Shown piece by piece: positions 25,684 to 61,062 of a stretch of DNA of 64,000 nt (position 1 is its first letter; every line of letters starts with the position of its first letter). The stretch comes from Argyresthia goedartella. Its lineage: Eukaryota; Arthropoda; Insecta; Lepidoptera; Argyresthiidae. The notes beneath the pieces were generated by a model. That model was not told where the DNA came from. It saw nothing but the letters and a program-made list of their open reading frames with translations, and did no database searches. The stretch is taken from assembly GCA_949825045.1 (NCBI GenBank), contig OX463808.1, positions 32,549,674 to 32,613,673 of the forward strand, read 5' to 3'. A program made the translations under genes and the position numbers.

Positions 25684-25818
25684 CTACAGGCCGCCGCCAC
25701 TGCGGTCCACGGTGATCTTCCTCTTGAGGGCTTCCTGCTCATGGTGTTCCTCCTCCATCTCAGCTAGACGAGCGAAGCGAGAGTACGCCACATGCCCGGA
25801 CTTGACTGCTGACATCAT
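25684..25818 (-). CDS. Gpo1: G3P dehydrogenase exon 15 (C-terminus and stop)
   Basis: The acceptor TGCTAG is followed by 44 codons and TAG. The product is [20 protein letters not shown], then [19 protein letters not shown] and SGGGL. It aligns with the LMSAIQKG...RSCGGL tail of human GPD2, so the reading frame is complete. Confidence 0.93.
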   Translation of the reverse strand: MMSAVKSGHVAYSRFARLAEMEEEHHEQEALKRKITVDRSGGGL

Positions 25819-28800
25819 CTAGCAGGGGGGAATATTTATGTCAAATACTTGCTGTACACGGTACCTATCGAGGTTCTAATGAGGCTTCGTAAACGCTAAC
25901 CAGTTTTTTTATAGGTACATGCTTGCCAAGTGTTGCCATACTCCCGATACATGCAATCTTATAAACGGTATGTTAATATTGGCTAGTGTGAGTTTGTTGC
26001 CTCTCGCCGTACAATTGACGTTTACCGAATCTTTTGGTTGCGGGATTTTGGCAAACTTTGGCAAGCTTTTAATTGATAACGTAACGTAGCATCACGCCTT
26101 TCCCCATATGGGTTGGCAGAGGCAGAATCGTGGCCTCTTTTAGCCAGTTATTCAATACTCAATAATGCGTGACGGGGGGCTAGGCCATCGCCGCATCTCT
26201 GGAGCAATTAGATGTTTTCCATCAACGTTAGAAGGTCCGTATGATGTACGTAAGATAAATTACTTATCTCATTGGTATATGGTCAGCACCGGATTCGCTC
26301 TAGCGTCAGTAGCGAGCGTGCTACCACTAGACCACAGGGCTCTTGTATTTCATTCAATCAATAGGATATCCTTAAGAAAACGAACTAGCTGTCCTTCCCT
26401 GGAATATAATGGTCTGAAACGGTATTTGGCCTGCTAACAATTTGCTCTGCATTTATATAAATACGTAGTGGAGAAGAGGATTTTAACGTGGACTATTCTT
26501 ACATAAAATATTGGTTAAGTTAAACACAGAAATAGGACCTAGTAAAATTAATATATTACTTACATGTCAGACAACAGACAATTACGTAAAGCATAAGCTG
26601 CATAAATATAGAAGTTATCATGCAAAACGACCATAAAACGAAGTAAATGAAGAAAATTTTGTTAAAAATCATGATAAATAACGAGTATGTTAATTAAATA
26701 CGAACTAATTATTATAGCATGCCACGCACCATATAATATCTAAAGAATTCTTGAAAGTGCCTAATCCAGTAGCTAGTCGTAATAAATTTGTAGCAGCTAG
26801 GAAATAAAAGGAAGAAAAGGATGAACCCTTCAAATTCAATTCAAACCAATGATTAGTGGAGCCAAACAATCTCAACATGACAATCTCTATGGTCTACCCG
26901 CTGTCCTCCCCGCTTTCCCACCACCCCCGTGTAGTCGAACCCAAAAATGAAGGTAAAAAATTGCCGAAGCATCGTTTCCTTCATTGGAGTATATGTCGCG
27001 CCAAGTTTCTTGGGCTGTGAGCGAGCTGTCGCCTCTCTCTTTCTCCCCCACCTTACCTGTGAGAAAGAGAGGTACAGCTCGCTCAGAGCCAAAGACTTGG
27101 CTTGGACTTTAAAAACGATCATTTGACGTATCTAATAAGCAAGCGAGTCTAGTTGAACAGATCCTTATTTCTTCTTTCTTAAGGGTCCCTGGCATCTTGT
27201 TTCGCATGCTTACGCGATGCGTTTATGTTCATGCTCACACTTCATGACTCCGTTGTCACAGACACAGAAGATAGAGTTGACCATGATACAAGCATACAGG
27301 TATAACAGTCCAGTCCTGTCAAATCCACACTACGTCATGTCGTCGTCAGTTGCTACAAATAGTCCAGCGTTGTTTGTGTATGTGTTAGTTGAGTTTTAGA
27401 TATGAACCTGCAAATACTCGTCGAGTTCCACTTGTCCGTTCATGTTAGTGTCGATTTCCTTCAATATTTCGTGCAATTGTTCTCCAGACACCTCCTCGCC
27501 ACTGGCCTGTGGACAAGAGGCTGCCGTGGTCAGACGGTGCTCATGATGAGATGGAAGGTCGGACAGATGGCTGTGAATTTCCGTGAATGGAGCTTCTGAC
27601 AATGTTTCCGTAAGGTATGAAGTGCATTTTGTCGTTAATATGGTATTGGACTGCTAGTCAAAATATATACTTTTTAGGAACTGTAAAAACGATAATTTTG
27701 TTCATGAGTTCTAGGAATAATCAAACGTCATGATTTTTCAAACGTCAAAAGCCAAATGATGTCTTTTTACACAAAATTGAATCTATATACGTAAAATACA
27801 AGTCCTGGAAATATACTATTCTGACATGGTCAAGCCGTTTTGTACACATTGCTTAAGACATGTTCCTAGATTTATTTGACTACCTTGCCCAATACCGAAT
27901 TGTTTGGCTGACAAGAAGTTGGACCATCGCAGTTCTGAAGATATTAATTCAAACCCACTGAGTACCCACATATCTCCAGAAGTAGGGATGGGCCTCTCCA
28001 TCGAGTTCTATCTTTATCAGTTTAACATAGACTTCATTCTCATGTCCGGTTTATTACATGTCAAAAACGCCAAACACGTTTCTTACAACATAGACACATC
28101 TAATCTAAACCCATTAAACGAATCCCTAAGTCCTTCAAAAGCAACATGGCTGACATTGACTCGTCCACAGTAACCCGGCTTCTACCTGCAGGTAATCTTG
28201 TAATTCCATCTGTCCGTTGTGTGTAACGTCGATTTCGGAGAGAATAGCCCGGATTTCGTCCTCGCTTGGCCTCAGACCCATACTCTATGGACATTGGTGG
28301 TTAGTAGTTACACGATATAATATTGAAATCCTCGATGACAATTTACTGGTTATTCGAAAACCAGACCCTTTTATGGTATCTAGATATCTGACAAATTCAA
28401 TGGCCTGCGCTAAAGAACAATTGCCATGGAATTCTGAATTTTTCAGTCCTTTACTTTTTCTGTGACTCTTATTACTTATAAAAATAACGGTCATAGGTAG
28501 ACCTGAGGATTACTACAACGAGGAAACTAAACAGCCGCAAAATTACCTTGATTGTCTTAAAACAAGACTTGGTTTTAGGTAAATGAAGCCCATTATGGAA
28601 AGGGTTGTCATGGTGATGTTCTTATTTAGAACCTAATCTGAGCGCTGTAAAGGTTGTGGTAACCCCCTGGACTAGGAACCATGGTTACATGTGGAAACCT
28701 GTGAGGTTGCAAAACTGAGTGAGGTTTCAAAAAGACTGCCAAAAGCAGCAAATATGGTCCAGCCGAATCTACAATCAAATTGAATTTTTGTAGTTATTCC

Positions 28801-31800
28801 CCATTACATTATCCCTGCGGATTGCAACTGGGCATTCGTTTTGAAATAGAACTTTGATAAATATATTTGTACGTTTTTTGGGGTAGAAACCACACAAAAA
28901 GTACATCACAACAAAATAAAATGTTCTTCATCGATTTAAAACACCCACTGTAAGTTCAGTATACCTTCATACTCCTTCTAATATCATTGATAGATACGAA
29001 TCCCTTCCTATCCGCATCGATGATCTGGAACCGCTTGATATAGGTCTGGATCTCTTCCTTGCTGAGATTAATGGGAATTTTATCGCGACTCGCCCGGTTC
29101 ACCATCTGACCCATCTCGGTTGCCAAGAACTCTGAGGCCAGCTTGAGTTGTCTCTGGAATAGATAAATCATCTTTTTAGGCTAGTGACGCTTGTTTTCAA
29201 TTTTTGGTAGACGAACCGGCTTGAGCACATTTCCTGGATCTAAGGACACAATGCACATATTCTCGGGTAACCCTCATTTCTGAGTAATTACGGGTAAGGT
29301 ATAGTTATTCTCGGGTGCGGTACCTCGGGTGTTTCTCGGCGTCGCTCCACTTGAGCTCCTCCTGCATGATGTCGACGATGGCGGGCAGGGCTTCGCCTTC
29401 GGCCTGCACGTTGAGGAAGCCCCGCAATTTGGCGGACTATAACACTGCAACTATGCTCGGGTAACGCTCTTTTATCGAGTAAAGTACCTGTTTTTGGGTG
29501 CGGCACCTGTTACTCGGCGTCACTTCACTTGAGCTCCTCCTGCATGATATCCAAGATGGCGGGCAGGGCTTCGCTGTCGGCGTGCATGTTGAGGAAGCCT
29601 CACAATTCAGCGGCCTATTATACACAATATTGTGGGGAACTTCAACTATTCTCGAGTAGCACTTATTTCTCGAGTGTACTCGGGTGCGGTACCTGTTTCT
29701 CGGCGTCGCTCCACTTGAGCTCCTCTTGCATGATGTCGACGATGACAGGCAGGGCTTCGCTGGCGGCCTGCACGTTGAGGAAGGCGAGGCGCAGGCGGCG
29801 CGCGATCATGTCGATGGCGGTGCACGCGTACTCGCGGACGCCGTATCTGGGGAATGAGTTTTGTCATAATTGAGACAATAGAGAAGAGATTTATCACATT
29901 TACTAATATTTTGAGACCTAAAAACATAAAAGGCCTCGCTTTTGCACTTTTTCATTTTATATACTATTGGTTTTCAACAAAAATAATGAATTTATACTAA
30001 AGTGAAACGTAACTTGCTTTAAAACACCCATCAGCACCTAGGGACGTTATAGATCCACAAACTTATCTCACCCGGTGACGGCGTCGCTAGCGTCAATGGC
30101 TTATAAATGAGATTCCACTATTTCTATTCAAAATGATATAATATTTGTGAAAATTAAAGCAAAATTAAAATTATTGCCGGATCTCTATCGGAAACGCAAT
30201 GCTATAATTAGTTCGTTGATCACTTTAACGAGAGGGCTTCTATCCATTCAATAGTTAAACGAGTTCGCGGCTATTACTCAAGTTTATTTTATTATAAATA
30301 TAATCCACACCATCTATCTACCACATAATAATTCAATAACATCTGTCCTACTGGGTCGATCCCGATAATATCCTTGATACTATGAACAATTGACTGTATG
30401 CCCTAAGAAATATAGATCCCAGGCGTACCTGACTCTAACAGTGTTTTGTTTCTGCCACACAGGTGAAACGTTCACTCCATATCCTCCTACGTCACACGTT
30501 GACTGAAGTCTGGTATGGCAAACAGATTTTACCTGATCTCAGCATCGATATAAGGGAACTCCGGGTGCATCTTCTTACCTGATCTCAGCATCGATATAAG
30601 GGAACTCCGGGTGCATCTTCTCACCTGATCTCAGCATCGATATAAGGGAACTCCGGGTGCATCTTACCTGATCTCAGCATCGATATAAGGGAACTCCGGG
30701 TGCATCTTACCTGATCTCAGCCTCGATATAAGGGAACTCTGGGTGCATCTTCTTACCTGATCTCAGCATCGATATAAGGGAACTCCGGGTGCATCTTCTT
30801 ACCTGATCTCAGCATCGATATAAGGGAACTCCGGGTGCATCTTCTCACCTGATCTCAGCATCGATATAAGGGAACTCCGGGTGCATCTTCTTACCTGATC
30901 TCAGCATCGATATAAGGGAACTCCGGGTGCATCTTCTTACCTGATCTCAGCATCGATATAAGGGAACTCCGGGTGCATCTTCTCACCTGATCTCAGCATC
31001 GATATAAGGGAACTCCGGGTGCATCTTCTCACCTGATCTCAGCATCGATATAAGGGAACTCCGGGTGCATCTTCTTACCTGATCTCAGCATCGATATAAG
31101 GGAACTCCGGGTGCATCTTCTTACCTGATCTCAGCATCGATATAAGGGAACTCCGGGTGCATCTTCTCACCTGATCTCAGCATCGATATAAGGGAACTCC
31201 GGGTGCATCTTACCTGATCTCAGCATCGATATAAGGGAACTCCGGGTGCATCTTACCTGATCTCAGCATCGATATAAGGGAACTCCGGGTGCATCTTCTT
31301 ACCTGATCTCAGCATCGATATAAGGGAACTCCGGGTGCATCTTACCTGATCTCAGCATCGATATAAGGGAACTCCGGGTGCATCTTCTTACCCGATCTCA
31401 GCATCGATATAAGGGAACTCCGGGTGCATCTTCTCACCTGATCTCAGCATCGATATAAGGGAACCCGGGTGCATCTTCTTACCCGATCTCAGCATCGATA
31501 TAAGGGAACTCCGGGTGCATCTTCTCACCTGATCTCAGCATCGATATAAGGGAACTCCGGGTGCATCTTACCTGATCTCAGCATCGATATAAGGGAACTC
31601 CGGGTGCATCTTACCTGATCTCAGCATCGATATAAGGGAACTCCGGGTGCATCTTCTTACCTGATCTCAGCATCGATATAAGGGAACTCCGGGTGCATCT
31701 TACCTGATCTCAGCATCGATATAAGGGAACTCCGGGTGCATCTTCTTACCCGATCTCAGCATCGATATAAGGGAACTCCGGGTGCATCTTCTTACCTGAT

Positions 31801-34800
31801 CTCAGCATCGATATAAGGGAACTCCGGGTGCATCTTCTCACCTGATCTCAGCATCGATATAAGGGAACTCCGGGTGCATCTTACCTGATCTCAGCATCGA
31901 TATAAGGGAACTCCGGGTGCATCTTCTTACCCGATCTCAGCATCGATATAAGGGAACTCCGGGTGCATCTTCTTTACCTGATCTCAGCATCGATATAAGG
32001 GAACTCCGGGTGCATCTTCTTACCTGATCTCAGCATCGATATAAGGGAACTCCGGGTGCATCTTACCTGATCTCAGCATCGATATAAGGGAACTCCGGGT
32101 GCATCTTCTTACCCGATCTCAGCATCGATATAAGGGAACTCCGGGTGCATCTTCTTACCTGATCTCAGCATCGATATAAGGGAACTCCGGGTGCATCTTC
32201 TTACCCGATCTCAGCATCGATATAAGGGAACTCCGGGTGCATCTTCTCACCTGATCTCAGCATCGATATAAGGGAACTCCGGGTGCATCTTACCTGATCT
32301 CAGCATCGATATAAGGGAACTCCGGGTGCATCTTACCTGATCTCAGCATCGATATAAGGGAACTCCGGGTGCATCTTCTTACCTGATCTCAGCATCGATA
32401 TAAGGGAACTCCGGGTGCATCTTACCTGATCTCAGCATCGATATAAGGGAACTCCGGGTGCATCTTCTTACCCGATCTCAGCATCGATATAAGGGAACTC
32501 CGGGTGCATCTTCTCACCTGATCTCAGCATCGATATAAGGGAACTCCGGGTGCATCTTACCTGATCTCAGCATCGATATAAGGGAACTCCGGGTGCATCT
32601 TCTTACCTGATCTCAGCATCGATATAAGGGAACTCCGGGTGCATCTTCTTACCTGATCTCAGCATCGATATAAGGGAACTCCGGGTGCATCTTCTTACCC
32701 GATCTCAGCATCGATATAAGGGAACTCCGGGTGCATCTTCTCACCTGATCTCAGCATCGATATAAGGGAACTCCGGGTGCATCTTACCTGATCTCAGCAT
32801 CGATATAAGGGAACTCCGGGTGCATCTTACCTGATCTCAGCATCGATATAAGGGAACTCCGGGTGCATCTTCTTACCTGATCTCAGCATCGATATAAGGG
32901 AACTCCGGGTGCATCTTACCTGATCTCAGCATCGATATAAGGGAACTCCGGGTGCATCTTCTTACCCGATCTCAGCATCGATATAAGGGAACTCCGGGTG
33001 CATCTTCTTACCTGATCTCAGCATCGATATAAGGGAACTCCGGGTGCATCTTCTCACCTGATCTCAGCATCGATATAAGGGAACTCCGGGTGCATCTTCT
33101 CACCTGATCTCAGCATCGATATAAGGGAACTCCGGGTGCATCTTCTTTACCTGATCTCAGCATCGATATAAGGGAACTCCGGGTGCATCTTCTTTACCTG
33201 ATCTCAGCATCGATATAAGGGAACTCCGGGTGCATCTTCTTACCTGATCTCAGCATCGATATAAGGGAACTCCGGGTGCATCTTCTCACCTGATCTCAGC
33301 ATCGATATAAGGGAACTCCGGGTGCATCTTCTCACCTGATCTCAGCATCAATATAAGGGAACTCCGGGTGCATCTTCTTTACCTGATCTCAGCATCGATA
33401 TAAGGGAACTCCGGGTGCATCTTCTTACCTGATCTCAGCATCGATATAAGGGAACTCCGGGTGCATCTTACCTGATCTCAGCATCGATATAAGGGAACTC
33501 CGGGTGCATCTTCTTACCTGATCTCAGCATCGATATAAGGGAACTCCGGGTGCATCTTACCTGATCTCAGCATCGATATAAGGGAACTCCGGGTGCATCT
33601 TCTTACCCGATCTCAGCATCGATATAAGGGAACTCTGGGTGCATCTTCTTACCTGATCTCAGCATCGATATAAGGGAACTCCGGGTGCATCTTCTCACCT
33701 GATCTCAGCATCGATATAAGGGAACTCCGGGTGCATCTTCTCACCTGATCTCAGCATCGATATAAGGGAACTCCGGGTGCATCTTCTTTACCTGATCTCA
33801 GCATCGATATAAGGGAACTCCGGGTGCATCTTCTTACCTGATCTCAGCATCGATATAAGGGAACTCCGGGTGCATCTTCTTACCTGATCTCAGCATCGAT
33901 ATAAGGGAACTCCGGGTGCATCTTCTCACCTGATCTCAGCATCGATATAAGGGAACTCCGGGTGCATCTTCTCACCTGATCTCAGCATCGATATAAGGGA
34001 ACTCCGGGTGCATCTTCTTTACCTGATCTCAGCATCGATATAAGGGAACTCCGGGTGCATCTTCTTACCTGATCTCAGCATCGATATAAGGGAACTCCGG
34101 GTGCATCTTCTCACCTGATCTCAGCATCGATATAAGGGAACTCCGGGTGCATCTTACCTGATCTCAGCATCGATATAAGGGAACTCCGGGTGCATCTTCT
34201 TACCTGATCTCAGCATCGATATAAGGGAACTCCGGGTGCATCTTCTCACCTGATCTCAGCATCGATATAAGGGAACTCCGGGTGCATCTTCTTACCTGAT
34301 CTCAGCATCAATATAAGGGAACTCCGGGTGCATCTTCTCACCTGATCTCAGCATCGATATAAGGGAACTCCGGGTGCATCTTCTTACCTGATCTCAGCAT
34401 CGATATAAGGGAACTCCGGGTGCATCTTACCTGATCTCAGCATCGATATAAGGGAACTCCGGGTGCATCTTCTTACCTGATCTCAGCATCGATATAAGGG
34501 AACTCCGGGTGCATCTTCTCACCTGATCTCAGCATCGATATAAGGGAACTCCGGGTGCATCTTCTTACCTGATCTCAGCATCGATATAAGGGAACTCCGG
34601 GTGCATCTTACCTGATCTCAGCATCGATATAAGGGAACTCCGGGTGCATCTTCTTACCTGATCTCAGCATCGATATAAGGGAACTCCGGGTGCATCTTCT
34701 TACCTGATCTCAGCATCGATATAAGGGAACTCCGGGTGCATCTTACCTGATCTCAGCATCGATATAAGGGAACTCCGGGTGCATCTTCTTACCTGATCTC

Positions 34801-37800
34801 AGCATCGATATAAGGGAACTCCGGGTGCATCTTCTCACCTGATCTCAGCATCGATATAAGGGAACTCCGGGTGCATCTTACCTGATCTCAGCATCGATAT
34901 AAGGGAACTCCGGGTGCATCTTCTTACCTGATCTCAGCATCGATATAAGGGAACTCCGGGTGCATCTTCTCACCTGATCTCAGCATCGATATAAGGGAAC
35001 TCCGGGTGCATCTCACCTGATCTCAGCATCGATATAAGGGAACTCCGGGTGCATCTTCTTACCTGATCTCAGCATCAATGTAAGGGAACTCCGGGTGCAT
35101 CTTCTTACCTGATCTCAGCATCGATATAAGGGAACTCCGGGTGCATCTTCTCACCTGATCTCAGCATCGATATAAGGGAACTCCGGGTGCATCTTCTCAC
35201 CTGATCTCAGCATCGATATAAGGGAACTCCGGGTGCATCTTCTTACCTGATCTCAGCATCGATATAAGGGAACTCCGGGTGCATCTTCTCACCTGATCTC
35301 AGCATCGATATAAGGGAACTCCGGGTGCATCTTCTCACCTGATCTCAGCATCGATATAAGGGAACTCCGGGTGCATCTTCTTGCCAATGATGGGCCACCG
35401 CTTGCCTGTCATGGCCGCCAACTTGGCAACGGCAAACGCACGGTCGCCATATGACTTGGACAGATGTTGCGCTACCTGCAACATTAGAATAGGTACTAAG
35501 CAGCGAAAGAAAAAAACAAGTATAACTAGCGGTGAAAAATGGCCCCACGAACAAAGTATTAGGAAGAGTTTCACATGATTCGTATGAATGAACGCCCTCA
35601 AAAGCAATATCGTTTAAAGTCTAACCTCCATCTCAAGCCCGAAGTCCTGCACGAGTCGGATGTACATGGTGGGTGTCCAGCCCTGCGCGCCCTCCAGTTT
35701 GAAGCCGTCCGTCTGGCAATCCTTGAACAGAGGCTTGAGATTCGCACCTGCAACCATGTAGACCGGAATAAGACTTCAGGAGCTATCTACCTTTACGAGT
35801 CTGTAGCCTGCACTGCAGGCCGGTTGGGACATAATGACCCAAAGATTGACCTAACAACTCCATAATGACTCATTTAAACTAATTCTCGACGTGTTTGTAA
35901 GTTAGGCCGCGATCACAAGGTGAGCCGGACACTATATAGCGGGCGGACATAATTTCCAGCAAGAGTCAAAATTATCCAAAACTTAACCCAAAAAATACAA
36001 GTATGACCCATAAACTCGCTCTCAATAGCAGCATCAATGGTTTCAGCGACCGTAGCTCGGCTCGTCATCCACTTGCCGCTCACCATCGTCACGTGGCCCA
36101 CCGGGGAGGTGTGTACGATATTGTTGCGCGCTAGCGACTGTTCGGGTTGGACATTAGCGGGCGTAATTACAGCAAGATGCAAAATAACCTAAAAGTTGGC
36201 CCAAATTAACCAAGAATTACCCATAAACTCACTCTAGCAGCGTCAATAGTTTCAGTAGCCATAAATCGGTGCGTGTTGCATTTCCCGCCCGCGATCGTCT
36301 TTAGGCCGACCAGGGAGATGTGCACGATGTGGTTTCGCGCTAGCGACTACGTGTCTTCCTTATTCGGGTCGGTTACTAGCGGGCGTATTTCCAGCAGATG
36401 CCAAAATTACCCAAAAGATGACCCAAAAAGCCAAGAATGACCCATAAACTCACTTTCAATAGCAGCATCAATGGTTTCAGCGGCCATAGCTCGGTACGTC
36501 GTCCACTTCCCGCCCGCGATCGTCACGAGGCCGGCCGGGGAGACGTGCACGATGTGGTTGCGCGCCAGCGACTGCGTGTCGTCCTTGTTGGGGTCGGAGA
36601 CGAGCGGGCGGATGCCGGACCAGGCGGAAAGGACGTCGCCACGACGGACTGTGTGAGATATGGGTAAAGTGCTAAAACACTCTTTTCATCACATCTAAAG
36701 ACATACATTAACGTTTCATTTGTTCATGAAAGCGGGAGCGGAGGAAGCCGTTGCCAGACCACAGGTGACGTTGACAAAGAATCCTAGTTTGGGGCTAATA
36801 ATACTACCACGAGCTAAGGTAAACCCCTCCTGCCTACCCTGGCACCCCGTCGCACTTCCTCCGCCGTACTTATTTATTTTATTTTATTTATTTTAAAAAT
36901 TACTTAAAACCTCTAAACTTGCTTAACCTCAGTGAAACAAAAACATAAAAATGAAAAAAAAATAAACAAATTCAAATAAGAGAGTTTACAAATAATCTGA
37001 GAAAAAGATGGAAACTGATCTTATCTAAAGTTTAAAGAACCACACGATCGAACCAAGATCTGGATAAAAGTTGTCTAAAACTATTCATATTCGAAATAAA
37101 TAAATCTAAACTAGGATATTGCACAAGCTTGTTGAATTCAGAAGGAGCTCTAATGAAAAATTTATTATGTCAAATAAACGGGTTTACGAATAGACGATTT
37201 TAACGGTACTTTAATATTAATCAATGATAACAGCTGTGAAGTATCGACTCTATTTTGAGCTATTTTAGCCAAGAAGACCATCAGCTTTATTACGCCTTAA
37301 ATAAAACGGCAGCATATGGAATATTTTACATCTTGCTTCATATGAGTTGTCCAATATCTTAGTCTTAAATTGAAGGAACCTCATAAAACGTTTTCGAATT
37401 AACTCCTCTGTCCAGTGTATTCACATCAATGACTGAGTTTTCGTCTAATTGTAGATGTCCACGGGACATATTTGTAGCTTTTTAGCTCGATTGGTCTAGC
37501 TCTGCCTACATGAAGAAGTGTACTAACCATCAACATCCTTGTTCAAGTAGTTCTTCACCTCGGTGAGAATGAACAGGATCTCGTCCTCCGTGGGCTTGGG
37601 GTTGTGCGTCACCTTGCACGGCAGGTCGGTGGTGCCCGCGATGGTGCCCTTCAGCCAGGGCAGGAAGAAGATGACGCGCCCGTCGGAGGTGGCAGGGTCT
37701 AGCAGGCCCATGTGCTCGGGGCTTGGGAGGAATGTTATTGTGAGTTCAAATCTTTCAACTAAAAACCGGCCAAGTGCGAGTCGGACTCGGCCATGAAGGG

Positions 37801-40800
37801 TACCGTTGTAGAAAATAATTATGTGACTGGATGTTTGTTTTGTAACTTTGTTTTTCATAGAGTTTGTATTAATGACAAAGTTATCTTTGCGGTTTTGACG
37901 TGATAACGTCTTTAAAATCGTTTTAGTCGGGTGACATGTTCAGAAACTTGTGTCACACCAAAACCTCACGAGCGCGATCGCAGGTATAACGAGAGAGAGA
38001 CGGACCGATCTCCCGTCTCATCTCGAGCGCTGCCAGTCATTCCGTGAAACTTGTCACGCGGAATCCTCACGAGCGGAGGCTTATCACGTAAACATCTCGA
38101 TCGTAAACCTACTTTACAAACAACCATTTTTTTTAATCAATGTTTTATATATTACAAACTGCTTGTTTTATTTTGTTCAAACCAATTTTCTTTGAAAGTG
38201 TATTTTCCGCTTTGGAAGGGTCTGTCTCTTTAACGATTTACTTTGAGGAAAAATGGTTTGAGGAACCTCAACGTCATTTTTAAAGGCCTATCTAAAGACA
38301 CCCCACATATATAGGTTTGATGCAAAAAATATTTTTTGTTTACAGTTCCATGTCTGGTTTTTGTAAAAAATCGTAAAGCGGTTGACATACCAAGTTGAAA
38401 ATCGTGTAGTCATAATAGTTTCTGCATATAGTTGCTGTGACATACGGACGGACGGACAGACAGACTTGACGAAACTATAAGGTCTTCTTGTTTCTCCACG
38501 GGACTGGCAATAGCGGCGCTACCATTTGCATCTCGCTCAGATTTTATACCGTCGCCCGACGAGTATTTATGCCGTCTCTCTCTAATGCCTTGAGCTGACA
38601 TTGCCGGTCTCTTTCTCTATTTGAATGGCTTATAATAAGATTATTGTCTAAAACGGGAATTACTACCGCGATTGTGTTTCGAGTGCGAGCAGATCTTGCC
38701 AGTAACTGCAGCTGCTCGCACTGTGTAACAAGACGAAGCCCATTAGTTATCCAGACGAAACAAAGAACAACTATACATAGATTTATATACGCAGGCACAT
38801 ACATGCTTCTACCCACACACCACCGCCAAACAGTGTCGTCACAAACATAACAAACATCCAAGACCCAGGGCTGCTTTTTCTCCCAGCCGGGATTAGACCG
38901 CGATTCCTTTCTCTTCTGGGGCAGTACCTCGGGCGCTACCCCGCAGAAGTCGCCATTTTATTTCGATATTTCGGCAGCAGTTGAATATCGGGAAGATAAA
39001 TAAAACCACGGCAAGCGCTCTTTCAGTTTCGTGCGCATTTACCATGCGGTACGCGGGCCGCGATACTGGCAGCACCAGCGTGCGGAGTCCATTCCATAGT
39101 AAATCCCGCGTGCGTGACGAAACCCGCATGACACGAAAGGAGGCCTTAATTCCGCGTGCGGTATGAAACCCTAAAGACACTGTAAGAGGCCTTAGTTTCT
39201 GACTCAGATAGAGAGAGCTCTCCATATCAAATGGCAAAATTACAAATAAATTTGTAAGGTGAATTTGTATTGCTCCTTCTTCTGGACTTCAATAAAGTGA
39301 TATGAAATGATAGAGGATGCAGGCACAGCCATGTTACAGGTATATCAACACACAAAATAATGCAGAAAAATGCAGTGAAATTGTAAGCTGCTGCGCACAC
39401 AAAATAATGCATCAATCCGGTTACGAATTATCTTATGAGCGATCAGACTGCAGAAGCGATTTCTTACAATCGTTACAGAGTAAAAGTTGGAACAAATTCC
39501 TCGAGGCAAAGGGTTAAAAATTATGTTTCCAAAATTCTAATAATAACCTGTAGTATCCGGGCAGTACAATGTGCACGCCAGAAGACGGACAGCAGATGCT
39601 CTTAACCGAAGGGTCATCCATCTGCCGGATGGTGTCGGTGAAGGGGCCCGTCGCGTTGATGATGCACTTCGCCTTGATGTCCCAGGTCTTGCCGGTGAGC
39701 TCGTCCTGGACACATGAACACACAATATACAGTGCATTTACTGCTACTAACCGCCAAAGGCCCCGCGGGGAATGAGGTTTCACCTCCGTCCCCGTTTGCT
39801 ATTGCCCTCGACGCGTTAGTACGTTAGTGAACGGACGTTATGACGTCATCATAGAGAGGTGCCTAAGCTCTAGAGATGTTTTTTTTTTATTGGTTAAGGC
39901 CCAGTTCTGGCTGTTGAGGTGAGGGGCGCCGCATTCGCCCGTCGTCTTTTGGCGAGGTAGCGGAACTGGCGCGGAATAGCATCGGGCCGCCCGGAGACGT
40001 TAGAAATTAGGTGTTTTTTCGAATTTACTGAAAAACGGAAATAAGATAATTGATAAAATTTAAGGATTAATACGGAACTCTAAAAAAGGAAAATTTAGGT
40101 ATAATTATTATGATCAAAATCAGTAACTGTATATTAAAATTATTGAATCTCCTTTTAAATATAGACTATGTTCAGGATTTTTTACGATCGAGCCAAATTA
40201 ATCCAATCGCATAAAGACATAGTATTTAAACTAGATTATCTCTTTGTGAATAACATTTAATTTTTTGAGACCTATGAATTCATTGGAAATAATTTTATAT
40301 TTTTTTTGCCCAAGCTCTCTTCAGTGGTTTTGTGTGATCTTATGCCTTAATGGTTAATTGATAAAAAATATCGATAATTTTGTTGGTTTGTTGGTTCAAT
40401 AAATAATCAAGCATTCACCTCACAGACTGAAATATCACTTCCTTTTGTAAGAACAAAAATATCAACAACAGTAACTGTGTTAAACTGTGTTTTATCGTAA
40501 GAGAAATAGAGCATACAATCAATAAGCGACAGAAATATCACTTCCGTTTGTTTAGAATAAAATATCCCCGTAATTTATGAGAGATGGAGCATACAATTGG
40601 TTAAATTTCCGTACCTGTTAGACTCTGACTGAAGTAGATATGATATTTTTATTCGCTAATGTTTATATTGTTTATTGAAAATCATGGTTGATATTAAATA
40701 TTGGTTAAATTTCTCGCGTTACGAATATAAGGTAAACAAAGAAGTGGCCAGTACAAAAATACTTATATTAAGAACGTCAAAGTTAAACATTTCTTTGTTT

Positions 40801-43800
40801 ACCTTCTTCAAGATTGGTAAGACGAGTTTAGTTAACTTTGGCGTGGCTTTTTCCGGAAATAAGTTTTTCTCAGACATGCAATGAAATGTCGTCATTGCGT
40901 GCGTTATAACACGCTTGGAAGTATCACGTTTCGGGCCGCACAACTCGAGAGAGAAAAGGAATTTCATACAAAATTGCAGGCCTAGGCCGGGAAGTATTTT
41001 TATATTATTTTATGCTCAAAGCAAAAGACATCAACAGGCGCACGTAACTTACGATTAGTAAGTAGTATTTTTAAACTTGAATTAGTTTTTTGAGTGGTGT
41101 ATTTATTATTTCATTGCATATGTTTGAGAAAAGCACTATACATGCCTGGCCGTGAAAAGGGCTTGCCGGCATCGTATCACCATCCATACTCAGCCGGCAT
41201 TAAGCCCTTCTTTCCCGGCGTCTGCAGAATGCACTATTATCTCGTATGTCATTAAGACGCTGTAATTCGTATGCTTCCAGCAATCGAAGCTTGCTCTAAA
41301 GACCAAAGTAAGTGGGCAATTATAAGTGAGTTAAAACTGACTAATCCGAAGGCTATTTTCCGGATGCCATAGAGAGAGGCATTACCTAGGTACAAGCTCA
41401 TTGTATATATTAATTAGTTTACTTGTGAAGTCTGTGGAATTGGCTTCATTATCGCTGTCTTCCCTAAAAATATATATCTGCTATTAAATATATAGTTTAA
41501 CCTCTCAAAAATATCTCTCTGCTATTAAATATATAGTTTAACCTCTCAAAAGCCGAGGGTATTCGGGATGGGTCGCGATTTTGAACCTTATGCCATTGTA
41601 ATAAAATTTAAAACCTATAGGTTTTAAATTTTATTACTGAAAATTAAATTACTATTACGGAAAAGTGGAAAATTAAATATGGCGTTTCTTGAAATACGCC
41701 GTTGTCTATGGGGCACATCATGATGTGCCCAAACCAAAATCGGGCAGATCGATGAGAACCAAACGTTTGTCGATATTCCCAGTCAAACACTGGGCTACAT
41801 CACGATATGGCCAAAGAATAAAACGTCACATCGTAAAATAGTTAAAAATTTGAGAATTAACAAATCTATTTCAATTTTACAATGATTATATTGTGGTTAT
41901 ACGTATGCTAGTTGACTATTTCCGCATACTATTTTTTAAATAAATATCCATACAATTTTTTTTAGTCCATAAACCAAATCAAGAAAGTATGCCACCCATC
42001 ACATGGGAGTCGGTTGACTTCCAAGTATGATATTTTAGAGACTTTCTTATTCTTAATATTAAAGGTTGTTTTTATTTGCACACGCATCGCTCCGATCCGC
42101 TTCGCTACGCTCCACATTTGCTTCTTCTTAGTTCCAACCTAACTTTTATAGGTTAGGTTAGGATGTGTGATATGATAATATCACAACTGAAATTAAGCCA
42201 CAATACTTTAGCCAAATTTGGCTTTTCACTGCTTTCAGTCACAAGCTCGCTCCGCTGGTTGCACATACACGTTCTAACCTAATCCAACCTACCGAGCCAA
42301 ATATGGTCTTCCTACTTTTAGATATGCCGAGTTATAGACTGGCTGATCGTCGAACGTTAATAGGCTAGAAACAATAAGGCGGATCAGAAATGCCGCCATG
42401 TCTTGATATGCCGAGGCACATTATTGATGTGCGGAATTTGACAATAGGCCGACGAGATCTTTAGCGATTTAGATTAGGTGCAAAACAAAACATCACCTTG
42501 GCCACCATTTCCAATGCAATACGCAAAATAAGGAATCGGCAACCGATGGATTTAAAAAAAACCGATAATTAATTTAATCCTTTATTTTAAGGAATGGAAA
42601 TTACAATTAAAACTTATGTCTATATTCAATCGATGCTAGAATTGAAGTGAAGTCTAAAGTTAACAAAAGAAAAGGCACTAAAAATGAATACACTATAAAA
42701 GTATGTTGGTTACACGGGTTGCTTACGCTGCATAGGAAAATTACAGTGAAATAATAAGTTACTACCTAAAACTATCACTATGCAAGCGCAATGTCGTCAT
42801 CAGACCTCGTCAGCAGATTCCGTGAATGCAGGGCATGTAACACCTCCCCGCGAAGATCAGTGACTATTTTAGAACATTGAGAGAAAATGTCTCTGGAATT
42901 GCATTTTTAGCCTTGATTATTGGTATGGCTTTTCTAGCCGTTAGTTTTCCAGGGTCTTCATATAATGGATCCGATGTAGACTCCGTTTCAGGATTTGAAG
43001 TACTGCGTAGAGTGTAGTAGCGGCGGCTGATCATGATTACTGCGATTAGACTGGCACAGCAGAATATCACGTAGAATGGTATGGTCGTGTGATATAGTGT
43101 TTCAGAGGTTAGCTGGTCCAGTTGCAGAGGCGGTTGAAGCAGGATTTTGTCCTCAGCGTTATGAAGTCCTCTCAGGTTGATAGAGTTTAGTTTGATATGT
43201 GGTACAGGAACGGTTGGTGACGTAATGTCAGTGTTATTAGGTAATTTCATGATTTTCAGTGGTTGTCCTTTGAGTAGGTCGTTTTCATTCATTATTGTGA
43301 ATTCTTCAGTGCGTAGAAGGCAGGTGTGAGGGATGATGGCGAGATAGCTTCCGTGTAGAGTGATATATTCTTCTCGGTCGCAGACGAGTTTAATCGCTGT
43401 TGGTTCCGGGAATGCAAGTGAGTAGTGCTGGTCGTCTAGTTTTTCCATGGCTCCCTTTGTTAGAGAGATGGTAGTAGGTTTGCAGGATTTATCCAGAGTT
43501 TGTTTGGTATAAGGTGTTGAATGCAGTCAGGATTTCTTCTTACAGGATGATTGGTATTTGCTTCGCAGATATACTGATGATCGAACTTCGGGCATTCAGC
43601 CTCTATGTACATGAAAGTCTTATCATTGGTTGCTATGAAAGGATAAGGGGGAATGAAGGTCTGATGGAGTTTATTCGGGACAATAGATAATTTATAAAAA
43701 TCAAAGAAATCTGGGGAAATTACAGGTAATTTAAAAACTATTACTATTTGGTTTTCTGAAAAGTATGATCCTGGCTTAATAATATTGTAATATTCTCTCA

Positions 43801-46800
43801 GTTCCAAATCCAATATCTGATCTGGTTTATATATTTTACCAAGCCTATCTAACATATTTCTTAAAGTATCTATATTAAGCATAGAATGATGTGTGCTCGA
43901 TGCACGTGTAAAAGCTAATATATCTTCTATTCTAAGTAACTCTAATGATAAGTCATCAATATTTTCACTAATAATAGATAACATCTGGGCAAACTTTGCG
44001 TACTTTAAAAGGTTATTCTCTGCGTATGCATTTCTGTCCAAAAGTAACATTAGGTAAAGTTTCGTTAATTTTGACTTGGTTATATGCTATGTGGGACAGA
44101 ATAGTGGTATGTTGAGACATCCATTCATTATTGATACTAATGCGTTCGTTAATTTCTGATAACATCTTATTCTGATTGCCTTCAAGTAACTTAATCGCAT
44201 CATTATACGTTTTCGCGTCCGCATAGTCCAGATTTCCAGCAATACTTTTAATTATTGAACCTAATCCGTCTATTAGACCTCTTTTTGTGCGACTTGGCTC
44301 TAAACTTTTTAACTGCGACATTGATTTTGCTAATTTATGGGAAAGATAAAGGATCTGAAATTCATAAAGGGAAAAGGTTTGGTTATCAAGTCGGTTCCTA
44401 AAGTACTGTAGTTGAGCCTCTACGGAGTCAAGTTTTTCTTCGATGTCAGATAATTGAATGTACTGTAGAAAAGTATGGTAGTGAGTTATCAGAGTAATTT
44501 TTCCTAATTTGAATGGTAAAACTCCAGGTCCATCGTCCAAGCTCTCAAGTCTTATCTCGTGAGCTCGCGTCAGCTGTGTCGTCAGTCCCAGTAGTATCAT
44601 ATAATATATCATCTTCTTCGGTTTTCTTCGCGTATCAATGTCTAGATACCTCCCCGGCTGCTCGTCTTCGTTCGTCGAATACTTGATGAAGGCTTGAAAG
44701 CTCAACCAGAGGCTTGCGGAGCCAACAGGAGCAACGATGTCTGGAGTCCTTTAGTTTCCCGCGCGCCTACTGACTCAAGGATCCTACCGGCTGCGCCAAA
44801 TAAGGAATCGGCAACCGATGGATTAAAAAAAAAACAATAATTAATTTAATCCTTTATTTTAAGGAATGGAAATTACAATTAAAACTTATGTCTATATTCA
44901 ATCGATGCTAGAATTGAAGTGAAGTCTAAAGTTAACAAAAGAAAAGGCACTAAAAATGAATACACTATAAAAGTATGTTGGTTACACGGGTTGCTTACGC
45001 TGCATAGGAAAATTACAGTGAAATAATAAGTTACTACCTAAAACTATCACTATGCAAGCGCAATGTCGTCATCAGACCTCGTCAGCAGATTCCGTGAATG
45101 CAGGGCATGTAACACGCATTAATAATATAACGGGCTTTATTTACCTAATACCAAGCCTTGTTTTGAGATGGTGTTGGTAATTTCATGATCATTTTAGGTA
45201 CCAAAACGTCTTATGCCGATTCAGTTTTGGAACCTAAAATGATCAGCAAAATTACCAAGACCGTCTTAAAACAAGCCTTGGTATTAGGTAAATAAACAAG
45301 GGCATACCCAGGATTTCAGCTGGGGGGGGGGCAGCTCATACCTGTTTCGAGAACATACAGGTTTTTAATTCCCACTTGCCAGGAAAATTGACGTTTATTT
45401 TATCTTCTAGGGCAGCAGCCCCCCCCCCCCCCCCCTGCCCCTACCTGGGTACGCCCATGTAAATAAAGCCCGTTATGGCAGATTGAAATGGAAATCGTTG
45501 CCTCGGGGATATTCTTGTTTTGAACCTAATCTGAATCGCTACAAGGTTGCGGTAACCCCCAGCTCTTGGGACCGGTAAGTAAGCTGTTCGCTAACCTTTA
45601 CACTAGCCCCGCTGAGCTTGCCATTAGTCTTGTGCAGTTTGGTCACGCTGACGTGGTTGGCGATAGCAGCGCCGTGACGTGCCGCCGTCAGGGCAATGGC
45701 GAGGTTCATGCGCGCGTCGTCTTGTTGGCCTGTGGGGGGAAATATATGCGTTAGGCTACGATCTTATTTCTTAGCCAGTGGACGGTCGACTGTTGATATC
45801 TATCTATGTCTCCTATTTGTCTATCCAAACCGGGTGATTCGTTATTCGATATAGATATTGTGAGGGATTTAAAGAGTATTTACTCGTCGAAGGATAAATA
45901 CTCATAACCACTCTTTTTTACTCGATAAATATCCAAAAGTGGGAATATTTAATGCTCATGTACACTCGTTTCTACTTAATAAATATCTAAAAGTAAGAAT
46001 ATTTAATTCTATTTTTTTTGCAAAACAACTTACTATTCCGCATTTATTTTGCGTCATCGTAACATTCAACTTTATTTTAAATCCCTATGAATATTTGAGG
46101 ATGAGGATTTTTAAAACATATTTACACCTAGTTTCGAGTAAATACTCGGTAATCCTCAGTATTTCCCATGAGTATTTACTCACAGTGCCCATCTCTAAAG
46201 TGGTTAAGTAGGAGTTCATTTTCAGCAAATTTAATCCATTATGAAGAGCCGAAAAATCGAAATATCTTTGGTTCAGTTCATGATTTTGTCGATAGATGGT
46301 GTTGGTGTCTTTTGACAGAACGTCGTCTTTCGGGTCAGCAAAATTAGTTGCTTCCAGATAAATGTTACACATCGCTAGTTAGCGGCGTTGCTATTCAGTA
46401 ATGCTGAGTCAATCGACCCGCTTGCTGTCAGTCAGCCGCAGTTAGAGAAAAAGGTCTATTATTATTATTTTTATTATTATTAGCCTACATCATCCCACCG
46501 CTGCGCAAAGGCCTCTCATCCCCTCCTCCACTCTTCACGCCCCTGGGCTACCTCCCACCAGTTGTTGTCTTGGTCCAGGACGCGCTGGATTGACGAATTG
46601 AGGTCGACCACGTCCCCTTTTCGCGTTTGGGATCCAGAGAGATGTTAGTTTGGCCCATCGGTCCGGTTACATACGGGCGACGTGGCCTGCCCAGTCCCAC
46701 TTCGATTCAGCTGCTTTTTCCGCTACGTCCTTTATTTCAGTTTTGGAGCATATACTCAGTATTCCTGACTCGATCCACTAATCGGACCCCCAGGATACTG

Positions 46801-49800
46801 CGCTCCATATTTCGCTGGCAAACCTCGAGCCTAGACTTTTGGATGTCAGTCAAAGACCAAGTCTGAACTCCGAAGGTAAGGATGGGAGGAATGCATATGT
46901 CCATTCTTGCTTTCTTTTTAGAGACAACGGAAGTTGTCCCTTCATGAGCTCTTTCATGGACCAATAGCTCCTCCAAGCTCTTTCATGGACCAATAGCTCC
47001 TCCAAGCTCTTTCATGGACCAATAGCTCCTCCAAGCTCTTTCATGGACCAATAGCTCCTCCAAGCGTTATCAATTCGTCTTTTGACATCTTTGCCTTGTC
47101 TGCACTGAAAGGAGACTATTTGGCCCAAGTATATGTATTCTTGGACAAATGCAATTCCTGACCCATCCACTTCCACTTTATGCTCAGTGCTATTTTTCAT
47201 GACCTTGATAATAATAATAATTGTTATTATTATAATTATATTATTAATAATATAGTTTATAATTTAAAAGTAATTTTGACGGTTTTTAAAAATGAGAAAT
47301 CGTGAACCTAGTAATTAGAATATTCATCGGTCCACGAACATACTGACTGGGCCACCTGTTGCCTAGGAGTATGGCTCAGTTAGTAAAACATGGAGTATGT
47401 TGTGCAGTCCTAAGAATTTTGTGGTCTGTGTGTTTGTTTATTGTTTACCCTCACAGTTAATGTTTTTATGTCCTTTCCTAAATTTCATCAATTTTGTTTT
47501 ATTAAGTGACCGAGCGACGAATCGTCCAGTTTCGAGATTATTGGCCAAAAATGCCTGTGTCCGTCTGTTTGTTCTTCGCCTACAGGTCGCATTTTTCAAC
47601 CGATTTTGATGAAAATTAATTGGATTTATTTAAACTTTTTAGTCGAACGCGATTTTTGATGGGGAGGGATAGGGGGATAGGGGGAAAGGGGGGAAGTTTT
47701 CTGTAGCGTTATTTATCGACGGATTTCAATGAAATTTTAAAGGCACACTAAGCACTTCATTCTAAACAAGATGTTGCAAAAAATCCATAGAGGGGGAGTG
47801 GAGGTGGAAGCACTTCGGGGTATTTTCGACCCCCAAGTAACTATCTTGTAGAAAACGATAGACACCTGAATTTTCTGTGACTAATAGACAAATTCCCATT
47901 TAAATAGACAAATTCCCATTTAAATAGACAAATTCCCATTTAAATAGACAAATTCCCAAAATTTGGTCAATTTGAACCAATAGTTTGGAAACGATAGTGG
48001 TTCAAAGTTCCGTCATTTTGTCACTGACTGACTCATCATCTAGGGTGGTGGGTGAGGGGGTTCTGGTAAGGAGGGGGAATAGGATAACCTACGGTGGGGG
48101 TTGTGGGTGGGGGATGGGTCTTTTCTACTTTCTCTCCAACATTGGTTGGTTGCATGGTTATAAGGGCTCGCGAGATCTTCTGTTCTCACAGAACCACTAG
48201 ATTTATTGGACGATTATTATTTTTCTATTAAATTGATCAAGGAATTATTTATGTCAGATTCTATGTATTTAGATCGTGCCCTATAAATTACGGTGCTGTC
48301 ATCAGCGAAAAGAACTATCGGATGATTCACACATTTTGGGAAGTCATTATTGCATACTAGGACATATTGCATACAACCTGCCAATTTCGATTACGTACCT
48401 ATTCGAATTGTAGTAATATGCATTACTGTGCACACAACACACTGCAGTTTGCACAAACGTGATTTGAGCCAAGTGCCAACTTAGCTCGCCCGAGTAATTG
48501 TGTGATCAACATTCTGCATTCCCTATAAATTACGGTGCTGTCATCAGCGAAAAGAACTATCGGATGATTCACACATTTTGGGAAGTCATTATTGCATACT
48601 AGGATATATTGCATACAACCTGCCAATCTCGATTACGTACCTATTCGAATTGTAGTAATATGCATTACTGTGCACACAACACACTGTAGTTTGCACAAAC
48701 GTGATTTGAGCCAAGTGCCAACTTAGCTCGCCCGAGTAATTGTGTGATCAACATTCTGCATTCGTGGGATAGATAGATAGGTGCCCTAGACGTATGGGGA
48801 TAAGGTACACAATGTAGCGAGACTGTTACGTAACAATGATGGATGGGAGTTATTATAGGTTGGTGTTGTAACCTGATACGGATTGATATGTGGTAAGCCG
48901 ACGTGTAATTTTCATAAAATATTCTTAAATGCCCCCTTATTCACATTCATAGATAACAACATCGACGCAGTTTTTTTCGTAGAGTAAATTATATATTAAC
49001 AAAGGGTCTTACTACAAAAGGAAAGATAAAAACCTTTTACAAAGGCCGGGTTTGGAATAGGAATTATTTGTCTTCTCCCAGTGCTGGTTATGTAATTTGG
49101 TAATGTACGGATAACAGGGGAATCTAACTTAACTCGGTTTAAAAACATGAATGAATACATTATGTATATGTACATAGGACATAGAATGTATACATACACA
49201 ATGTATAATTAATGTATACATTACCTCAAAACAAACGTCAAATACATTAATGGATTTAACGTTTGTTTTGAGGTTAAACTACATGGTATATGTTTATGTC
49301 AAAAAGATGTTTAGTGTGCACATTTCACAGGAAAACTGGCGTATGTGGCAGAGTTTTGTGGTCCGTTTGCGGGGCCCTTATCTTAAGAAAGGGTCAAAAT
49401 GACCTAGCATATTCCCATTCGGAGTCGCAGAGGCACCGCACGACGACCTCTGTGATCGTGGATTCGATCCTCGCTAGAGACGGGAAAAAAACAGGTCTTG
49501 GATCTTTGGGACGTCGTCGCTGTTTCTGGTTCCTACGTCAGAGAGTATCCTAGTGTAGGGCCAGAAGCAATGCAGAGATAAACTACGAGAACATGGCGCG
49601 TCGCTCCTCTACACCATAGGTAAACTTCACGCTCACTCTCGTCGTGAGCACGCTCGCTGTCTCGCCGTCGGAAGCGGATATAATGGATATAATGGAGGGG
49701 CGCCGTGTTATCGTAGTTGATCTCTATGCGCCCTCTAGTTATAAAACTCACCGTCATAGTAAACAATGCCGCCACAAAGGTTGTCGGCCTTCAACATCGG

Positions 49801-52800
49801 GAACAGTTCGAGTGTGTTCTTCTTGGACAGGTAGTAGGAGCTCTTCACGTTGCGGTCGCCGGCGACGAAGTCATACATCTTGATGCCGAACCAGAAGTAC
49901 GGCACCTGCCACCAGCTGCAACGAGCATAGGAAGCAGTCGTAATTACGCATCGAAAATGTTAGCGAGTTGAACTGGCTATTGGCTGGAGGCGACACAAAT
50001 AAACTAATAAAAAAGTGTATTTGAAACTTTGAGTAATAATGTATAAATACTAGAGACGCTAGCTCGAACAAAATATGTGCCCGGCCTCTTGACGAGAGCG
50101 GGCTTGTCAGTTGTCATAGATAAAAATCTTTGCGCTCAGATGCGACATGCCGAAGACGGTCAGTCGCATTTGCCCAAAAGTATACCTATCGAGTGAATCC
50201 TGCCTATACAGGTTGCATACTTTTAATGTCGCGCAGGCGACCTATAATGTGTATTTGGGAATAAAATAAAAGAGAATGTGCACATATCCAATATTTTAAT
50301 GGGTTTATTTTTTTCATTGGTTGTGATGTTGTTAGTCAGTCTAATGAATAAATTGACAGTTCTTTAAATTTTCGTCAGATGATAATTATCATTAATTAAT
50401 TGCGGTAGTAAAACATGAGTGGTATTTCAGCGCAAGGGTGTACCTGTCACTGCTATGAAATTTATCCTTATCATCTTGGGCTTGCTGGAAGAAATATCTT
50501 GTTAAAGATAAGCTTGCCTTTGTAAATGTCGTTTCCATAAGTTTTTAATGTGAATTTTCATGTGCAATAAAATTTACAAAATATATGACGTGCCTAACAC
50601 GTTGGTATTCGGAAATGACACATCTGCACGTAAACATCTTGTCACTCTTTGATTTTCAAAGAGAAAACATGGCTGTCGCTATGTTGATTTTTGTCATTCA
50701 CAAAATATTAGTATATGCGTATTTTACTGATAATACATGGTACTTAAGTATGAAAAGTTATTCCTTGGCTTTTTTGGTCTGTACGGTGTAGTTTTTACTG
50801 TACCGCAGAGCACATGACGGCATTATTTAGTTTCTTACTCTCGCATCAAAAGCGTCACGGCTCGGCAAGCGCTTGGCACAGACTGAATTGGTGTGGAGTG
50901 AATTCACTCTACTTATAGCTGCAAGAAAGTCAGTTTGCGCGCCTACTCTAGTATTTATACATTATTACTCAAAGATTTGAAAATGGAATCTATGGCTACC
51001 GTACAACAGCTGTCTGTCGTTTTCGAGGTTGTCTGTAGCCATAATTTGTCTGATATTCAATCGCTAGTGAACTCACGTATACACCGGCAGCAGGATGGGC
51101 AGAGGCCTCGTGAGGTGCGGCGCCACTTCCAGCATGTTGGCTCGCTCGTGCAGAGCTTCCTTTACCATCTTGTACTGATCGTAGTCGAGGCCCAAGATCG
51201 CCTGAGTGATTAAGCAACGTCTTTGATATTGATAATACAGGCAATTATCAAAACTGGAATCACATTATGACAGGTTTTAGGACATTATTGACAGGTCGAC
51301 GAGGCCCAATCGCTTGTCAGGCGATTGATGTGAAATATTTAAAAGGAACCTGCCAAAAACACTTTATTTAGAAAAAGATGAACGTTAATTTTCCGTAGAT
51401 ACGGCGACTTCCTGTCTTTACGGATCTAGAAGATTACTGGGGTACCTTGGGCGATTCAGTCGATAGAAGGTCACATGGGGGTATGTAATGACTTCTATGT
51501 GAGTAAAATTGGTACCTTCTGCAAGTACCGGACGCCTCCGTGGATGAGTTTCGTGCTGCGACTGGAGGTTCCGCTCGCAAAGTCATCCGCCTCTACTAAG
51601 GCGGTACGGAGGCCTGCAATCAAACAAATATACTTACGTCTTGGAATCAAAAGAACCTACAACTGCAAACTGAAATGTCGAAAGTAATGTGGATGTTTCG
51701 AAGCATTTTGGAACTAGCAATTACAATCTTTATTAAGATTTGGGGAGGGACATGGACAACAGTAACCAGTGCCAAAACACAGGTAATTGGGTGAAATGGT
51801 CACTATAGAGGACCGATCATCATCATCATCATTATCAAGACTTCGGCTATCTAATGGAATCAGGAATAATGATGGCTGGCTGGCTGACTTTTGTGGACGT
51901 GCATAGCTGCCAGCTCAAAGTATTACAAATACACAAATTTAGAGATGAGGTCGATTTAAGGAAAGTACAGTTTGAGGTTACAAACCTTTGTAGATTTATA
52001 TTGGCCGCTTACGTTTTTACTATGGTTTGATTATGTCATTAGCTGTCGACAGAGATATGTCTTGGTTTTCTGTTGTACTAAAAATATAATGTTTTAATGG
52101 TTTTAAACAATAATTCTCGTCTTCTTCATCATTCTAAACATGGTAGCAAGGCGTTTTGTGTACAGTAAGTCGTAAAATGAGTAACAATATCGTAATACCA
52201 ATTTTTGACGGAACGGATTATGCCAATTTAATATTTAAAATAATGCTATTGCTAACTTAAATACGATAATTATTGAGTAGATCACACCACACACAAACCC
52301 CAGTGGTTTAAGTGGTGTTCCCATAATGAGTAACTATGTAAAATTTTGTGTAAATAAATAAATAAATTAAAAAAAAAAAAAAAATGGAAAATTCGACTAT
52401 TGAAATTTCTTCAATTTAAGAAATGTAAGGAATTAGCCATTAGAATAAAAACTGGTAAAGACAATGCTGTTCAGTGGGATGAGATGGATATTCAGGCTGC
52501 AAACTATACATACAGCGCGATTACCAACCAACAGTTGGAATATATTAGCGAGATAGTCAGCATACAAAATTATATTAAAATTCGACGAAATGTATTTAAA
52601 GCAATCTACATCGTTGCAAATTGTATGCAGAAGCAATTTAGAAAATATAAAGCTAGCGAAATATTCGGATATTAATATTTTCTTCAATGATTTTGAACGA
52701 TATGTCAACGATTTGAAAAAGGCCGGTGCCAAGATGTCGGAAAGTGAAAAATTAAACTATATGTTAAAGGCGTTGCCCGAAAATTATAGTTATATCAGCG

Positions 52801-61024: not shown

Positions 61025-61062
<38 letters not shown>

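Follow-up and report, generated by a model that had tools for sequence, protein, structure and literature searches.

The stretch of DNA considered here, 64,000 nucleotides of the lepidopteran Argyresthia goedartella (GenBank assembly GCA_949825045.1, contig OX463808.1, positions 32,549,674 to 32,613,673; hereafter the window), carries on its minus strand a gene which, judged by its spliced frame and its relatives, is the intact lepidopteran gene for mitochondrial flavin adenine dinucleotide (FAD)-dependent glycerol-3-phosphate dehydrogenase. The intron between exons J and K of this gene contains an array of 107 head-to-tail copies of the end of exon J, each including a splice donor, and the origin and possible role of this array are the subject of our analysis.

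The gene model comprises 14 exons, named A to M2, plus a start exon and a last exon (table 1). Spliced through M2, it reads from ATG to a single final stop over 722 residues; from exon A to that stop, 618 of the 691 residues are identical, across 691 columns free of gaps, to those of a protein of the moth Phthorimaea (P0002). Among PDB entries, bacterial glycerol-3-phosphate dehydrogenases match the joined model, the best of them with an E value of 3.5e-88. Out of 7995 homologues that were scored, the best 120, all protein sequences of other species, form the set of relatives to which we refer below; the first 33 of them show 83-90% identity, and every one that is named comes from a moth or a butterfly. 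In a Pfam scan of nine exon-sized pieces, one matched DAO_C above the curated cut-off, five matched DAO and two EF-hand families, all of these below their cut-offs, and one had no match. Moth annotations include either of the EF-hand exons M1 and M2 or the two in succession (P0004, P0026, P0003).

Table 1. Features of the gene and of its intronic exon-end copies, numbered from the first letter of the window; the slash marks the exon-intron boundary
Feature	Position	Strand	Basis or remarks
Whole coding span of the gene	25684..63454	minus	exon model
Start exon	63454-63362	minus	exon model
Exon H	36454..36648	minus	195 nt
Intronic copy 1 of the 3' part of exon H, the donor region, and the intron head	36170..36388	minus	81.7% identity in 224 columns; includes a stop codon
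Intronic copy 2 of the 3' part of exon H	35955..36140	minus	82.8% identity in 186 columns; GC in place of the donor GT
Exon J (coding exon 11), ending in unit 1 with donor CAG/GTGAGAAG	35339..35475	minus	exon model, donor joins
Intron J-K	29847..35338	minus	5492 nt; units 2-107, then 686 nt free of units
Array of 107 head-to-tail units	30529..35382	minus	Tandem Repeats Finder, unit split, donor classes
Donor of the last unit, CAG/GTAAAATC	30525..30535	minus	presumed pre-duplication donor
Exon K, next exon after J	29693..29846	minus	
Intronic copy 1 of the 3' half of exon K and donor	29444..29597	minus	79.9% identity in 154 columns; contains two stop codons
Intronic copy 2 of the 3' half of exon K and donor	29310..29419	minus	90.0% identity in 110 columns
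EF-hand exon M1	28284-28186	minus	99 nt, in frame; looks alternative with M2
EF-hand exon M2	27506-27408	minus	99 nt, in frame; looks alternative with M1
Last exon	25818-25684	minus	exon model

Tandem Repeats Finder reports the array as one repeat with a period of 46, 107.0 copies, and 95% matches. Splitting the sense strand at each unit start yields 107 units, 74 of them 46 bp long, 25 of 43 bp, 6 of 47 bp, one of 45 bp, and a last one that is open. The 46-bp unit consists of GAAG, 38 coding bases ending in CAG, and GTAA, i.e., of the last 42 coding bases of exon J followed by the start of its donor; the 43-bp type has one AAG fewer and so 39 coding bases, while the 47-bp type has one A extra. 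GT is kept in 107 of the 107 unit donors, which read CAG/GTAAGA in 60 units, CAG/GTGAGA in 30, CGG/GTAAGA in 10, CAG/GTAAAG in 6, and CAG/GTAAAA in one. These counts agree well with the original prediction, made from the letters of the window alone, which had put the array at about 105-110 head-to-tail copies, assigned them to exon 11 (the start exon at 63454 does make exon J the eleventh coding exon), placed the real exon end in unit 1, where exon J indeed ends, and seen AG/GTAAGA or AG/GTGAGA in nearly every unit: AG/GTRAGA is present in 90 of the 107 units and G/GTRAGA in 100, with CAG/GT in 97.

No convincing match to the array unit was found in the 64-kb window outside the array, and a degenerate 32-base pattern of the exon end had no matches in viral and genome contig collections, from which insects as such are absent. 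We rejected an open reading frame across the array, given 70-80 stops per frame in all six frames and a longest open run of 54 codons in a stretch of 5.1 kb, and likewise a known structured RNA, with 0 Rfam matches at the gathering score within the window.

Donor strength was scored as the unforced RNAduplex optimum against the 11-base 5' end of U1, a measure under which weak real donors may pair out of register, and was controlled by the number of in-register matches to the nine consensus bases CAGGTAAGT; the two scores agree on the units versus the background. All 107 units have a duplex energy of -8.3 kcal/mol or lower and 100 of them of -10 or lower, with -11.0 or -11.1 for 90 units and -8.3 for the donor of the last unit. 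Among the 14 donors of the gene only that of exon J, which is the donor of unit 1, attains -10 kcal/mol, as do 0.43% of background GTs; about 1.1 such donors would be expected from the GT background of the window in 4.85 kb, versus the 100 seen. In register, 60 units match eight of the nine bases and 47 match seven, so that all have at least seven, a level found in 42 of 3272 background GTs (1.3%). Two of the gene's 14 donors, those of F and J (the latter again being unit 1), match seven bases and none matches more.

Read from the letters, only donor 1 is predicted to give the conserved full protein. When exon K is joined to each of the 107 donors in turn, the frame is open for donor 1 only, and this join restores the conserved protein sequence. 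All the others meet a stop after residue 500 (in the model starting at exon A), as had been predicted for the later donors, and this holds for 106 out of 106; the stop is not 'TGA or TAA' as then worded, but always the TGA in the AGG-TGA of unit 1. The pattern of the unit-1 motif occurs exactly once in each of the 120 relatives, and in the 45 that were displayed it directly precedes the residues encoded by exon K. Intron J-K, moreover, does not depend on the array for its existence: exon K has an acceptor of its own and is separated by 686 nt from the last exon-like base.

The explanation that we consider quite probable is that the array is a young minisatellite, derived from a tandem duplication across the exon-intron boundary and tolerated by virtue of the first donor, which continues to define the exon. 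A trace of the initial event may survive at the downstream end, where the last unit has CAG/GTAAAATCTG as its right flank, the other 106 reading GTAAGA, GTGAGA, or GTAAAG. On the simplest reading, this flank would be the original exon-intron boundary, and GTAA would have been fused to GAAG, at their common AA, in the first duplication; from the letters of the junctions, the segment GAAG...CAGGTAA would have been duplicated at a microhomology of two bases, the AA of GGCAA/GAAG and of GGTAA/AATC. The new junction, GTAA/GAAG, would have placed a G at position +5 of the upstream donor, and the +5 G of the donors thus seems to have been created by the duplication itself. In the order of events that we infer, the donor with this G would have paired better with U1, in terms of duplex energy, than the old donor remaining at the downstream end: the change from old to new donor takes the duplex from -8.3 to -11.0 kcal/mol and the in-register matches from seven to eight. 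Exon definition from the acceptor of exon J would then have paired this acceptor with the nearest strong donor, that of unit 1, so that the mRNA would be normal and everything behind it would be intron. Unit 1 may later have changed its +3 A to G, or gained the change by exchange, as judged from this one genome.

Slippage and multi-unit exchange would finally have taken the number of units to 107. The match of unit classes at a lag of 27 units is 0.44 versus 0.24 in shuffled arrays (z 4.3, the sole lag of 30 past 2.5) and a string of nine units recurs 27 units on; as a pattern, the later growth of the array by blocks is plain. The youth of the array is evident from its core of 36 nt, identical in 101 of the 107 units, with a mean pairwise difference of 0.36% when the 45-bp unit is left out. 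The core differences number eight in 3852 bases (counted by eye, some being common to several units), and at this rate 0.44 changes would be expected in the 214 GT bases. None is seen, which has a probability of 0.64 and hence is no surprise; intact donors were accordingly rejected as proof of selection. GT is intact in all units because the array is young, and there is no evidence of selection on the donors. Among the explanations offered by the original prediction, neutral satellite growth holds.

Several considerations weigh against this explanation, in whole or in part. The ancestral state is read from one genome, and the preference for donor 1 among the 107 is a deduction from the protein. 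Unit 1, with its GTGAGA, matches seven of the nine bases in register, exactly as the donor of the last unit does, and 60 later units match eight; the step invoking a stronger first donor consequently rests on duplex energy and on the donor as it would have been before the +3 change. Studies of competing donors, as far as the cited part of PMC5585400 goes, include cases favouring the intron-proximal donor with SRSF1, and such a preference would favour the harmful end of the array, so that some cost is plausible; that donor 1 wins by exon definition is our working assumption, which can be tested. Finally, the four unit variants with at least six copies all fall in or beside the donor, something that plain neutrality does not require. 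Two of them (one AAG missing, one A added) alter the length of a purine run and would be explained by slippage in GTAAGAAG; the other two, +3 A to G (30 units) and -2 A to G (10 units), would lie there only by chance, a mild oddity.

The end of exon J is not the only one to have been copied in this gene. In a comparison of the 14 exons A to M2 with the 13 introns between them (sense strand, E <= 1e-4), matches were found for H (2), J (106), and K (2) only, each confined to its own downstream intron, and in all three the copy takes in the 3' end of the exon and continues through the donor. The copies of H and K are older than the array units, with 80-90% identity and, in three of the four, stop codons or GC in place of GT. 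No acceptor is included in any of the three duplications, a number too small for a test. The region of the gene may thus be prone to donor-spanning duplications or forgiving of them, the copies of H and K being of the same kind as the array and low in number. An annotated protein of Mythimna separata (P0001) also repeats the tail of exon H, with 39 repeated 10-mers lying 49 residues apart, and is the only one among the 120 relatives with such 10-mers; internal repeats were sought in this way, self-BLASTP having reported none in the 120 while missing the plain repeat of P0001. This repeat may be a real duplication or a matter of the gene model. If it is real, exon-end duplication would be recurrent in this gene. 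Separately, a protein of Achroia grisella (P0073) lacks about 65 residues matching exon H, which may reflect a skipped exon or an error of the model.

Functional readings of the array must be weighed against the neutral origin that we favour. A share of the transcripts might use later donors or keep the intron, the stop-bearing RNAs being decayed or held in the nucleus, so that copy number would set the output of enzyme; the 106 extra donors would then be rivals for the exon K acceptor, or would stall it in the manner of decoy exons. That every later donor has similar strength and leads to the same early stop would suit such tuning, and decoy exons, recognised but rarely spliced, are described in part of PMC12017769 as causing intron retention in OGT and other genes. 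They own a 3' splice site, however, whereas the AGs of the units score like many chance AGs, and with GT showing no sign of selection we judge this reading unlikely. Improbable too is a length-coded rheostat, in which U1 would bind over a hundred similar donors spread along 5 kb of nascent RNA and the number of units would set the share of transcripts escaping donor 1 into stop-bearing or detained RNA. If it were true, changes in copy number would tune an enzyme of the glycerol-phosphate shuttle with the coding sequence untouched, and the duplications of H and K would represent earlier or smaller rounds along the same route. Another conceivable use is stepwise removal of the intron, each CAG/GTAAG serving as acceptor and donor, i.e., as an exon of zero length, and each step rebuilding the exon end. 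The 97 units with CAG/GT would allow it, and in the part of PMC3443670 cited here, duplicating AGGT in tandem is accepted as a way in which such paired sites arise, but the pyrimidine tract is weak: with a matrix built from 14 acceptors only, 93 of the 107 units have an acceptor score of 0.1 and 10 of -4.5, and the median unit score is reached by 30% of all AGs. The real acceptors score from 0.2 to 11.1 in 13 of 14 cases (leave-one-out) and -0.6 in the other, the poorest of them being hardly better than the units; on balance this reading is very unlikely.

The density of complementarity to U1, with 100 of the 107 units at or below -10 kcal/mol, could also suggest a U1 binding field, whose role would be to prevent premature cleavage (telescripting) or to titrate U1. 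The transcripts of one gene are unlikely to dent the U1 pool, though, and the host intron has a single A(A/T)TAAA, located after the array, while introns with 21, 17, and 11 of these motifs hold no exon-end copies; a field of this kind is very improbable. The roles that had originally been proposed, namely a U1 sink, a guard against polyadenylation, a nonsense-decay switch, and slowed splicing, gain no positive support. As to the assembly, the true array might be much shorter and have been inflated by the assembler, or be otherwise of the wrong length, since long near-identical arrays are error prone and the copy number could still be wrong. Simple looping would not produce an irregular order of seven donor types and twelve complete unit sequences, the open last unit not counted, with a block period of 27 units, and we give an artefact of this sort only a slim chance.

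The window contains further repeats that concern neither the array nor the exon-end copies. One other young tandem repeat, at 1286-2905, has 21 copies of 77 bp with 99% match and lies outside the modelled gene. Intron D-E has short perfect or near-perfect tandem repeats at 46947-47065 (29 bp x 4.1), 47883-47958 (20 bp x 3.8), and 48279-48763 (242 bp x 2.0). In intron E-F, direct repeats of 322 bp that are 98.8% identical (42522-42843 and 44794-45115) flank minus-strand frames of 245, 208, and 220 amino acids; the whole looks like a young long terminal repeat element, and the 208-residue frame, the only one scanned, had no match in Pfam. Intron A-B holds a Copia-type retrotransposon at 51972-56375, antisense to the gene, with gag, integrase, and RVT_2 domains and bounded by repeats of about 165 bp that are 92% identical.

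The significance of the array lies partly in its being a natural experiment: many donors of similar strength are set in nearly the same exon context of 39-42 bases, so what selects the first? The 107 sites differ mainly in their distance from two partner acceptors and thereby offer a graded series in which exon definition can be set against intron-proximal preference. The array also suggests a route by which an exon end may become an intronic satellite with the protein unharmed, and, together with H and K, a possible bias whereby duplications across donors would be tolerated more often than those across acceptors (three of three in this gene, too few to prove it).

The original prediction knew of no described array of splice donors of this size. 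No donor array of this size, and none larger, was found in the open-access literature, a scope that most subscription papers fall outside, but a precedent for the principle exists. The human IFI6 (6-16) gene reportedly has a minisatellite of about 26 units of 12 bp at the end of exon 2, the array abutting the exon. It is presented in the title of Turri et al. (1995, PMID 7596809) as providing multiple splice donor sites, and two downstream repeat units are said in part of PMC4526556 to serve as donors. The likeness, as far as these sources describe it, is that of minisatellite units each carrying a donor; here, 107 of 107 have at least seven of the nine consensus bases and exon J ends in unit 1. 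The array of exon J differs in its 107 units of 43-47 bp, each with 39-42 coding bases, and in the stop to which all later donors lead. Intron gain by tandem genomic duplication, in the parts of PMC3443670, PMC2891723, and PMC4974935 relied on here, similarly involves duplication of coding sequence with AG/GT and extra copies hidden from the protein by splicing, but there one duplication makes an intron inside an exon, whereas the piece duplicated in exon J straddles a donor that was already there, makes a pre-existing intron longer, and has reached 107 copies. The decoy exons of OGT, ARGLU1, and SF3B1, as partly documented in PMC12017769, share with the array intronic splice sites that are rarely or never used and bring stops if used; they are exon-like with both sites, while the array units seem to lack a convincing acceptor. 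Tandem GYNGYN donors, as presented in a portion of PMC1779574, likewise are competing neighbours, but they overlap and mostly cause subtle changes of the protein, whereas 106 of the 107 donors here lead to a stop. What sets the array apart from these precedents is its copy number, the coding content of the unit, and the lengthening of an existing intron.

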